Below, in pieces: positions 7,655 through 18,816 of a DNA stretch of 35,048 nucleotides (position 1 is its first letter; each line of letters begins with the position of its first letter). The notes below the pieces were generated by a model that worked only from the letters and a program-made list of their open reading frames with translations, was not told the DNA's origin and made no database searches. Position numbers and translations under genes: made by a program. Origin of the DNA: Streptosporangiaceae bacterium (GTDB taxonomy: Bacteria > Actinomycetota > Actinomycetes > Streptosporangiales > Streptosporangiaceae); the NCBI GenBank assembly GCA_030037785.1, contig JASHQA010000183.1, forward strand, positions 1 through 35,048, written 5' to 3'.

Positions 7655-10600
7655 CTAAGTCCGGGCCGACTCTGGTACGGCCGCTACGAGCCGCCGGTAG
7701 AGCTCCGTGGTGTCAGCGTGCGGCTCCCCGGCCGGCGCCACGTCCTGGATCGCGTCAAGGCATCGCAGCCACGCCTCGGTCACGCCAGCGAGATTGCCGG
7801 CCGCGTGCTCGGCGCGCATGACAGCCCGCCACAACTGCTCAGCCGACGCCTCGGCCAGCAGGCCCGCCCGCGCCGCTCGCGCCGCTGCCCGCGGCGAGCC
7901 AGTCGCGAGCTCGATGTCCGCGAGCCGCTCGGCCGCGTCGACGATCTCGGCCCGCACGCTTTCGATGAGCGGTATGTCGATCCACCAGAAGTAGCCGCCG
8001 GTGAACGGCTCACCGCGCACCAGGGCCAGCGCGCTGCGCAGATCGTCGGTTCCGCCGGAGGCGACGAGCTCGCGAAACCGCGGCCAGTCCAGTGCCGCCT
8101 CGCGGTGCAGCAGGTACTGGCCGCGACCCGCGTGGATGATGTACTCCGCGCCGTCGCTTGCCAGTCCGAGCCGGCGCCGCGTCCGCGCGATGATCTGCCG
8201 GACCGCGTCGGTTGGCTTCGGATGATCGGGATCGGCGCCGAGCAGGCTGCACAGCGCGGAGTTGGACAGGCCTGCCGGTGCGGCCAGCGACAGCGCGAGT
8301 ACGAGCTCGGCCTGCTTGGGCTGCAACTGGCCCGCTGCTCCGCCGATGACGAGCGGGCCGAGGACGCTGACGGTCAGACCCGCCGCGGCCGCTTCGGCAG
8401 TCCCCGGCCTGGTTCCGTCCGGACCGGCGGCCGCCGGGTCGGACGCGTCCGGCTCGCCGCTGAGCAGCTCGGTGTCGTGCGCGTTCCCGCCGCCTGCGTC
8501 CGCGTCGTCCGGCGCTTCAGGTTGCGGGCCAGCCGCGACGTCCGGGCCCGGTCGCAACGCTGCCGCCTGCGGGATCCACGGCGCCGCTGCGTATCGGGTG
8601 TACGGCTCCTCGTCCGGACCGACGTCGTCGCAATCAGCCGCGGTAAACAGCGTGCCGATCGCGGCGTACTCCGCCGCTGACAGCGCGTGCGGGCGCACGG
8701 TGATCTGCAGCGGAACCACGTTGGCCACGATTGCATCGGCGGCCAGCGGGTCGGGCGCTAGTTGCAGCGCCACGGGGGCCATCCGGCCGTCGGCCGCCTC
8801 CGGGTCGCCGGCGAACAGCACCGCCGCGCCGATCCGGCTGTCCACGACGAGGTCGAGCAGCCGGGTGAGCTGATCCGGCGACGGCTCAGCACGGCTGACG
8901 AGGATCGTGAGGCCCCAGTCTTCATCGTCCGGCTCGGCCAGCCGCAACTCACGAACGCCGACGGGAGCCCGCGCCGCGATGCGCTGCTGCGTCCTCGCAC
9001 AGCGGGACGCGATGATGCACAGCGCTTCCGCCAGCGTCGCGCAGTGCTCGGCGCGGCCCAGCGGCGCGAGCTCGTCGAACCCCACCAGATACAACTCGTA
9101 CCAGCCGCTCCACTGGCAGGCCGCTAGCTCGGTCGCGATCGTGGTCACCACCTGGTCGACCAGGGCTGGCGGCCCGTCGCAGCCAGTGACCTGCAGCGAT
9201 TCCAGGTCGAGCAGCAGGTATCCGTCAGCCGTCGACCCGACGGTGACGAGGCCGGGCAGCACGTGACACGCGGGCCGCTCCGCCGGCAGCGCGGCTGCGG
9301 CTGGCAGCGGGAGCTGCCAGCACATCCCCTGCCGGCCCGGGCTCACCGCGAACGGCGCGGGCGGCGCCTCCGCTGCCGGCGCGGCCAGCAAGACTTCCAG
9401 CACGTCGGGGGCGACGTGCACGCCGACGATGTCGGGAAGCCTGCCGTTGCCCGCGAGCACGCCAGCCTCCAACACGGCGAGCGCGTCGCGCAGCCGCTGC
9501 AGCGGCTGCGCGACAGTCGTCGCGCGCAGGCGCTGCTCCGTGGCAAGCACGGCAGCGCTGGCCGGCAGCGCGATCCGGCGACCAGGCCGACGCTCCTGAC
9601 GCTGCCGGAACCGGAGCCGTGTCAGGCCGGCCAGGATCGCGCCCGCCAGCGCGCCAGTCACGAACATCGCCGCCTGCGGGACCTGCGCTGCGTGGCCGGC
9701 CGCCCGGCTGGCCGGAGCGGGGCCCGTCGAGTCGGCGCGAGCAGACGAGCGGGCGGCGGGTCCACCGGCTGCGTTCCCGCCGGGCTCGCCGACTGACGGC
9801 GCTGTCGTCACGGCGGTGCGGGCCGCCGGATGCCGCCTGCGGTAGTGCGTGTCCGTGGTCGCGTGACCCGGGTGCTGGCTCACACCGGGCAGTGGTGCTG
9901 ACTGCCCCGCGCCGTCGGCGGTGCCGGGGGCGGTGCTGCCTGCAGTGCCGCCGGCGGGCAGCAGCAGCTGCCAGCCGGGCATGATCAGCGCGGGGTTCGT
10001 GAATGCCTGACCGTCGCCCATCTGCCGCCCGTAGTTGAGGCGGGCGATCTCCGGATACAAGTCGCCATTGCCGAGGTAGCGCTGGGCGATGGACCACAGG
10101 CAGTCACCGCTCTGCACGGTGACGACCGTCGCGGCGGCGGTCACGGGCCCCGCTACGGCCGCGACCGGCCCGGTCCCTAGCTGTAACGGGCCGGGCTGGC
10201 TCTGACTGGCGTCCTCGGCCGCCACGGTCGCCGCCGACGCGGGGAGTGCGCTGGCGGCGGACGTGCCCACCGTGAGCGCGGCCAGCGCGACCAGACGCGC
10301 CGCGGCGCCCTGGATGCCCCCGAGCCGCAGCCAGGGGGCGCGGCGGCCGCGGACCGCGGCGAGCGCCTCGGCCAGCACGCAGGCGGTGAAGGCCAGCCAG
10401 GCCAGCCAGGTGCCGTCCCTGACGACGGCGAGCACCAGGCCGGCGCCATCGCGGCTGAACAGCCCCGCCAGGATCTGGTGCCAGCCAGCCAGGCGGCGGG
10501 GCAGCGGCGAGCCAGCGAACTCGAAGAGCAGCACGGGCGCGCCAGCCACGACGGCAACCAGCGCGACCACCGCCGCCAGCCCGGCCGCCATCGCGCGGGC

Positions 10601-17136: not shown

Positions 17137-17817
17137 CTAGCGCCCGGCCGCGTCCGCGAGCCGCAGGGCGGCGGCGACCAGCCGGTCGGCACGGCGCCCG
17201 GCGGCCGGCTCCGCGGCGCGCGTCTCCGCGAGCAGCCGATCCGGGTCCTGACCAGCCCGCTCGGCCTCGGCTCGGCCGCCGTCAGCGAGCCAGCGGCCGA
17301 CCTGAGCGCCGTCGACCTCCGGGTGGAACTGGACCGCGAGGTGCGGTCCGACGCCGTAGGCCTGGACGCATACGTCGTTGCTGGCCAGCACCCGCGCGCC
17401 GGGGGGCGGCAGGCACCGGTCGCGGTGGAACTCCAGCCAGGGGCCCGGTTCGATCAGGCCCGCATCGGCGGTCTGCACGGTGACCCAGCCGACCTCGCTG
17501 CGCGGTGCCGCCTCGACCCGGCCGCCGAGCGCCACCGTCAGCGCCTGGGCACCGAAGCAGATGCCGAGGACCGGGATGCCGGCCGCGTCGGCCTGCCGCA
17601 GCCAGTCCAGCTCCGCGCCGATCCAGTCCGCGATCCGCTCCTCGTACACCGACCAGGCCGCGCCCAGCACGACCACGTGGCCGACCCCGTCCAGTGACGG
17701 CAGCGGCGGCTGTCCGGGGAACAGGTGCGTGCTGAGCTCCGCGCCGCGGGCGGCGAACGCGTCGGCGACGAAGCCGGCCTCGTCGATCCGGTGGTGCCGC
17801 ACCACGATCACGCGCAT
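17137..17817 (-). CDS. Class I glutamine amidotransferase (GMP synthase-like)
   Basis: Nucleophile elbow VLGICFGAQALTVALGG; HLAVQFHPEVD; AGGGAG RBS before ATG. Confidence 0.88.
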   Translation of the reverse strand: MRVIVVRHHRIDEAGFVADAFAARGAELSTHLFPGQPPLPSLDGVGHVVVLGAAWSVYEERIADWIGAELDWLRQADAAGIPVLGICFGAQALTVALGGRVEAAPRSEVGWVTVQTADAGLIEPGPWLEFHRDRCLPPPGARVLASNDVCVQAYGVGPHLAVQFHPEVDGAQVGRWLADGGRAEAERAGQDPDRLLAETRAAEPAAGRRADRLVAAALRLADAAGR

Positions 17818-17844
17818 CCGGCTGCTCCCTCTGCTCGGAAACGA

Positions 17845-17893
17845 TTATCGATTGGGTTTCTCAGTAATAGTTACTGAGAAACCCAATCGATAA
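17845..17893. repeat. Perfect 23-bp inverted repeat, 3-nt spacer, in divergent intergenic region
   Basis: TTATCGATTGGGTTTCTCAGTAA-TAG-TTACTGAGAAACCCAATCGATAA; arms 17845-17867 and 17871-17893, no mismatches. Confidence 0.97.
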
Positions 17894-17919
17894 CGGGTCC
17901 CGACTCGCCAGGATGAGAC

Positions 17920-18816
17920 ATGAGCTGGCGGCTGACGGACAGCCTGGACGACTTCGAGCGCGCGGCGGGGGCGCACCTGAGCGCCGATCCGGTGCGGCAG
18001 ACCGTGCCGTTGTCGGTGCTGGCCACCCTGCGGCACGCGGGCATGTCGAGGTACGGCGCCGACGCGCCGGTGTTCGGCTGGCACCAGCGGGCCGATGGCG
18101 CCGTCGACGGCGCAGTGCTGCAGACACCGCCGTTCCCGCTGCTGGTGGCCACCCTGCCGGCCGGATCGGTGCCCGGCTTGCTCGCGGCGCTGGCCGCCGG
18201 GCGCGGGCTGCCGACCGCGGTCAATCTCGCCGCCACCGACGAGGCCGGCTTCCTCGCCGACTGGATGAGCGAGACCGGCGGCACCGGAACGGCCAGCGGC
18301 CGGAGTCGGCTCTACCTGCTCGGCAACCTCGTGCCGCCGGCGCCGGCGCCCCGTGGCGTCGCGCGACTGGCCAGCCACGCGGACGCGGGACTGCTTGTCG
18401 ACTGGCACCAGGCGTTCCGGGCTGAAGCCGAGGCAGCGGGCCCGGAGCACTCGAGCCGAGTCGTAGCGGACCAGCTCAGCCACGATGGGCTCATGCTGTG
18501 GGAGGCCGGCGGCGAGCCAGTCGCGATGGCCGGGCTGACCCGCACCGTGGCCGGCGTGGCCAGGGTGACCGGCGTCTACACCCCGCCCGCGCACCGACGG
18601 CACGGGTACGCGGCCGGCGCTACGGCGGCGATCAGCCGGGCTGCGCTGGCAGCGGGCGCTCGCAGCGTCGTGCTGTTCACCGACCTGGCGAATCCGACCA
18701 GCAACGCGCTGTATCAGCGGCTCGGCTACCGGCCGGTGCTTGACCGGGTGCTGCTGAGAGTGGCGGCGGGGGCGAACGTCACGGCCGAGGCCCGCACGCC
18801 GTCGGCACGGTCATGA
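17920..18816 (+). CDS. GNAT-family N-acetyltransferase
   Basis: C-terminal GNAT core: VAMAGLTRTVAGVARVTGVYTPPAHRRHGYAAGATAAIS...VVLFTDLANPTSNALYQRLGYRPV. Confidence 0.88.
   Translation: MSWRLTDSLDDFERAAGAHLSADPVRQTVPLSVLATLRHAGMSRYGADAPVFGWHQRADGAVDGAVLQTPPFPLLVATLPAGSVPGLLAALAAGRGLPTAVNLAATDEAGFLADWMSETGGTGTASGRSRLYLLGNLVPPAPAPRGVARLASHADAGLLVDWHQAFRAEAEAAGPEHSSRVVADQLSHDGLMLWEAGGEPVAMAGLTRTVAGVARVTGVYTPPAHRRHGYAAGATAAISRAALAAGARSVVLFTDLANPTSNALYQRLGYRPVLDRVLLRVAAGANVTAEARTPSARS

Follow-up and report, generated by a model that had tools for sequence, protein, structure and literature searches.

The perfect 49-bp palindrome at positions 17845-17893 of the window (the whole 35,048-nucleotide stretch of DNA from a Streptosporangiaceae bacterium that was analysed here) probably belongs to a dispersed family of palindromes tied to a gene on another contig, which encodes an AbiEi-type DNA-binding domain together with a probable DUF559/Vsr-like nuclease domain, in a partnership resembling that of RAYTs and REPINs. 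Palindrome families linked to such AbiEi-DUF559 genes are dispersed through several genomes with a preference for gene ends.

A perfect palindrome between divergent genes

The palindrome consists of TTATCGATTGGGTTTCTCAGTAA, the trinucleotide TAG and TTACTGAGAAACCCAATCGATAA (Table 1), with no mismatch in 23 pairs and a GC fraction of 0.347 (35%) against 0.721 (72%) across the window. It is real, perfect and well beyond chance expectation, with a palindrome score of 23 against a maximum of 13 as the best among 20 Markov-shuffled windows. The gaps to the starts of the divergently transcribed amidotransferase (17817) and GNAT (17920) genes are 27 nt and 26 nt, respectively; the initial annotation, which had described a perfect AT-rich 23-bp palindrome placed nearly symmetrically between two such genes, was hence accurate on these points, and its names for both genes are borne out by Pfam. 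As a folded hairpin the palindrome is predicted to reach -34.4 kcal/mol as RNA (z = -12.5) and -24 as DNA. In the interval 17700-18000 of the window we found neither a sigma-70-like promoter nor a T-tailed terminator; an intrinsic terminator would comprise a GC-rich stem followed by a run of T downstream of a gene, and no such site occurs in this interval, in which the flanking genes diverge. The palindrome has no match in Rfam at the gathering score. A separate perfect 30-bp GC-rich palindrome, GTCGCGCAGCCGCTGCAGCGGCTGCGCGAC, with a score of 15 that is just above the shuffled maximum of 13, is present at 9485-9514 of the window.

Table 1. Coordinates of the palindrome, its neighbors, its copies in the source genome (G000) and the associated gene
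Feature	Location	Strand	Remarks
Left 23-nt arm, core CGATTGGGTTTCTCAG	window 17845..17867	+	six other genome copies
3-nt centre, TAG	window 17868..17870	+	gives element orientation
Right 23-nt arm	window 17871..17893	-	perfect inverted repeat of left arm
Class-I glutamine amidotransferase, left neighbor	window 17137..17817	-	Pfam GATase; orthologs found
GNAT acetyltransferase, right neighbor	window 17920..18816	+	Pfam Acetyltransf_1; relatives found
Palindrome copy	C35:17868-17916		
Palindrome copy	C273:1690-1738		
Palindrome copy	C273:7879-7927		
Palindrome copy	C302		window copy
Palindrome copy	C420:6642-6690		
Palindrome copy	C224:142-190		
Palindrome copy	C261:2057-2105		
AbiEi-DUF559 gene	C420:6742-7770		AbiEi-type DNA-binding domain and probable DUF559/Vsr-like nuclease domain

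Copies in the source genome and its relatives

The assembly from which the window derives contains seven complete 49-bp copies on six contigs, while the reversed pattern, used as a control, gave 0-1 matches. As read on the contigs, the centre is TAG in five copies and CTA in two. Homology among the seven is confined to the 49 bp, the flanks being unrelated, and all of them lie within, or border, intergenic regions. No target-site duplication is visible flanking any of them and no parent transposon lies beside any, and thus the combination of terminal inverted repeats, target-site duplication and parent transposon that defines a MITE was not encountered at these seven sites. Changes between copies are mostly matched in the two arms: 14 cells are altered on both sides in a nine-copy alignment, versus 6.1 expected under shuffling. 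On the left side of the C35 copy (L005) a NUDIX/GNAT-like ORF, seemingly without its usual C-terminal part, ends inside the palindrome; the counterpart of this site in the related genome G002 is devoid of both the NUDIX/GNAT-like gene and the palindrome.

Two further interpretations of the copies were considered and abandoned. In the TAG orientation the majority of the positions that vary among the source-genome copies coincide with third codon positions of a frame approximating RLGFSVIVTEKPNR-stop, with tips reading TAA/TGA/TAG; this coding reading was rejected because the symmetry leaves only about 4 independent sites, the stop is lost in several copies from other species and there is no conserved in-frame upstream ORF. 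The scattering of the copies as singletons led us to discard an integron attC-like reading. In BLASTN searches of phages and plasmids, short chance matches were all that was recovered.

Among 345 genomes of the family a degenerate pattern allowing up to 3 mismatches detected copies only in the source genome and G002. A covariance model recovered 22 copies in five of the nine genomes of the genus (seven in the source genome, two in G002, five in G006, three in G003 and five in G001), the genus relatives being fragmented assemblies, and none in the 394 further class genomes that were searched. Comparison of orthologous sites added one more copy in G003 (C247) and one decayed copy in G006 (C204). 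The option of a small mobile or REP-like palindromic element, which the initial annotation had raised, is thereby favored, the search of the genome and its relatives having yielded six more copies in the former and at least 15 in four other species. The stem sequence is specific to species groups, being CGATTGGG in the source genome and G002, CGCCTGGC in G003 and G006 and different again in G001, with TTYTCAG...CTGARAA shared across the groups.

Association with an AbiEi-DUF559 gene

One copy of the palindrome is situated directly upstream of the same AbiEi-DUF559 gene in all five species, at 55-126 nt from the aligned start of the orthologs. These orthologs, with 57-70% identity, are found in exactly the five copy-bearing genomes, the best match elsewhere being at 50%; the four genus genomes without a close ortholog, which encode AbiEi-DUF559 paralogs only (identity ≤50%), have no palindrome copies. 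The N-terminus of the protein matches Pfam AbiEi_4 (E 8e-9) and the PADLOC AbiEi model (E 3e-24, residues 12-184), and its best PDB match is 6y8q (E 0.003), which is an AbiEi-type abortive-infection protein. The C-terminus shows a weak match to DUF559, with a best E of 4e-4 and a hit at E 0.1 in 7 of 12 members, and has conserved positions, namely E, D, E-x-D, H and R/D/RDN, as in Vsr-like nucleases; from these sequence features it is predicted to be a probable DUF559/Vsr-like nuclease domain. In the published type IV toxin-antitoxin systems AbiEi has a DUF1814 toxin as its partner. The AbiEi domain described here is instead followed by a nuclease-like domain: no DUF1814 (AbiEii) toxin gene was recognised beside the source-genome gene, and the AbiEi ORF runs on into the DUF559-like domain. 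Downstream of it lies a convergent ORF that appears from its sequence to encode a DapD-like transferase. Searches of plasmids with the protein (tblastn) gave no match.

The gene-adjacent palindrome of the source genome differs from the other copies of that genome at 1.0 of 16 core positions, versus 2-4 of 16 from the orthologous copies of G002, G003 and G006; such resemblance to copies of its own genome is what concerted evolution, or co-evolution with a protein acting in trans, would be expected to produce. Sequences resembling TTATCCACA (DnaA-box-like), some of them mismatched, are seen in the interval from the palindrome to the AbiEi-DUF559 gene, or next to these, in the source genome, G002, G003, G006 and G001. 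In the source genome a second, unrelated 34-bp palindrome, TCAGCATGCGATCGCGGTCGCGATCGCATGCTGA, spans the predicted ATG of the gene (C420, L163:1474-1507).

As published, the promoter of AbiEi itself contains two 23-bp inverted repeats, with a 3-bp spacing, to which the protein binds; Rv2827c recognises two pairs of this kind, at most 131 bp from its start (PMC7319586). The window copy has the 23+3+23 geometry of these operators of S. agalactiae abiE and M. tuberculosis Rv2827c, and a site in the roughly 130 bp that precede an AbiEi-family gene is likewise present, as one copy per species, in the five species. The window copy differs from them in having an amidotransferase and a GNAT gene as its neighbors, and the repeats described here differ in being near-perfect palindromes that are dispersed genome-wide. 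The earlier suggestion of an operator stands with respect to geometry but not ownership, the probable owner being the AbiEi-nuclease gene on another contig rather than the gene pair of the window.

Other AbiEi-nuclease genes and their own palindromes

An upstream palindrome of their own was found at 24 of 53 AbiEi-nuclease homologs but at none of 58 control genes from the same loci (Fisher p = 6e-10, with the related genes not being fully independent); in roughly half of the homologs sampled, none could be detected upstream. These palindromes, which are approximately 35-72 bp long and precede the aligned start by 55-166 nt, occur with paralogs from the genus as well as in other families. They differ among genes, those of related species showing some similarity. 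In about 10 genes of family f21 the same palindrome is repeated 2-16 nt past the aligned end, such that the gene is bracketed. In the genome G517 the palindrome of the gene recurs at 14 further places with 94-98% identity; multiple dispersed places are also seen in G444, G404, G509, G452 and G563, and fewer in G005, G003, G001 and G002. The G517 copies (L269-L282) have a near-invariant 50-bp core, with locus-specific flanks that are themselves inverted-repeated to give arms of up to 44 bp. As pairing that continues into locus-specific flanks exceeds the need of a binding site, these extended arms suggest insertion into the loops of terminator hairpins that were already present, or else hairpin-templated repair.

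Placement and turnover of copies

Across several palindrome families the gene ends adjacent to dispersed copies are 3' ends in 70 cases versus 5' ends in 36 (p = 0.001, as counted with a simple gene caller). The regions holding these copies include 21 convergent, 25 tandem and 5 divergent ones, and the median distance to the nearest gene 3' end is 6 nt. The window copy is thus atypically placed, since it lies between divergent genes while most copies adjoin 3' ends.

Both the window copy and the copy at the nuclease gene are shared with G002 at the same places; the G002 counterparts of the C35, C273a, C273b and C224 sites have no palindrome and differ in their intergenic content. The copy on C47 of G006 is not matched in G003, in which the same gap contains a palindrome of a different, second family. 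A clean empty site did not emerge from the comparisons made, in which the entire intergenic stretch differs. The initial annotation had looked to relatives for presence of the palindrome at the same gene pair, and this is seen in G002 but not in G005, where the amidotransferase/GNAT pair has none. This second palindrome family of the G003 gap also occupies the region upstream of the orthologous amidotransferase in G003 and G006. Its core is TGTCGCTATAGCGACA, and its members lie at L086:2037-2092 (G006), L087:1844-1895 (G003) and, in another gene gap of G003, around L253:610-640. Dedicated control of the amidotransferase/GNAT pair, as had been envisaged, finds no support in view of the G005 pair and of the different palindrome family in G003 and G006. 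We regard the two genes as host genes that lie outside the palindrome system; the window palindrome itself, which G002 shares, was probably inherited as one of the older copies, and the same AbiEi-nuclease protein might incidentally bind there.

Proposed partnership and its alternatives

In the partnership that we consider probable, the AbiEi domain would bind both 23-bp arms in the manner known for AbiEi and its promoter, and the gene-adjacent palindrome would serve as an operator through which the AbiEi-nuclease gene is autoregulated. The nuclease domain, acting with replication or repair, could then spread or maintain copies at gene ends, with the palindrome and the gene behaving as a RAYT/REPIN-like pair in which the AbiEi-nuclease replaces the tyrosine transposase. 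Were each arm a single site for the protein, the parallel change of both arms and the species-specific variants would follow. Weighing against this partnership are the weakness of the nuclease match, the many homologs at which no upstream palindrome is seen, the extended arms in G517 and the failure to find a clean empty site or a target duplication. Each RAYT has its own REP flavor alongside (PMC3116915), and the present system resembles REPIN-RAYT in its short, dispersed extragenic palindromes, with a distinct type per gene of the family and species-specific variants. It differs in that the linked gene in all five species is AbiEi-DUF559 rather than an HUH/Y1 tyrosine transposase, in that none of the seven source-genome copies has a GTAG or CGTC tag at the stem feet, and in its low copy number (7) and its nearly perfect arms, which measure some 23 nt or more. 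Vsr-like (EDxHD) homing endonucleases are known for a selfish mode of spread. They resemble the proteins described here in the probable nuclease domain, of the Vsr/DUF559 type, and perhaps in this way of spreading, whereas no intron or intein is involved here and the associated DNA is a non-coding palindrome with many dispersed copies. We found no paper describing the pairing of AbiEi-DUF559 genes with palindromes in the open-access literature, which excludes subscription papers.

A different possibility is that the AbiEi-type protein is a global regulator, with the palindromes being operators of adjacent genes that were fixed by selection, none of them mobile. The exactness of the AbiEi geometry, the retention of the palindrome core while the flanks drift and the conservation of the amidotransferase-locus copy in the source genome and G002 are all compatible with this, and the AbiEi of S. 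suis binds an oriT site besides its promoter (PMC11062541). We nevertheless regard it as unlikely, given that the dispersed copies are mostly at gene 3' ends, often between convergent genes, and not at promoters, and that they turn over between close species. Such positions, just after stop codons, together with the high stability of the hairpin, would suit bidirectional terminators that stop transcripts from both sides, with copies spread by recombination and a nuclease gene that merely carries one. This appears quite improbable, however, as the window copy lacks a T tract, both it and the gene-linked copies are upstream of starts, the conserved sequence is more than a terminator requires and many nuclease genes have a palindrome of their own.

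Dispersed extragenic palindromes with a preference for gene ends are REP-like (PMC3733652, PMC3116915), and the copies could on this count be ordinary REP or MITE remnants moved by a conventional transposase, the AbiEi-nuclease gene being a chance neighbor or a repeated insertion target. Against this, in addition to the untagged stem foot, different palindromes are found by different AbiEi-nuclease genes in several families, which is hardly a coincidence, and we accord it very little weight. It is scarcely credible that the window palindrome is a local operator of the amidotransferase/GNAT pair recognized by an unrelated dimeric regulator: its near-symmetric placing between divergent genes and its presence at the same place in G002 would be in keeping with such a role, but the six other copies adjoin unrelated genes and the G005 gene pair lacks the palindrome.

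Implications

To our knowledge, the principal described example of a bacterial gene maintained alongside a dispersed population of palindromes is REPIN-RAYT. The RAYT/REPIN-like partnership favored here, if true, would constitute a second and enzymatically unrelated gene-palindrome pairing, implying that the arrangement evolved more than once. It predicts binding, co-variation and a change in copy number upon deletion. It would further provide a candidate function for many genes annotated merely as AbiEi-family antitoxin or DUF559, and would connect the operators of type IV antitoxins with repeats found across the genome. More tentatively, AbiEi-DUF559 genes and their palindromes might form a new class of selfish element, in which a sequence-specific antitoxin-domain nuclease disperses its own operator-like palindromes to gene 3' ends, in some lineages with a bracketed palindrome-gene-palindrome arrangement. 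Taken together, the observations suggest a little-known kind of partnership between a gene and a repeat.
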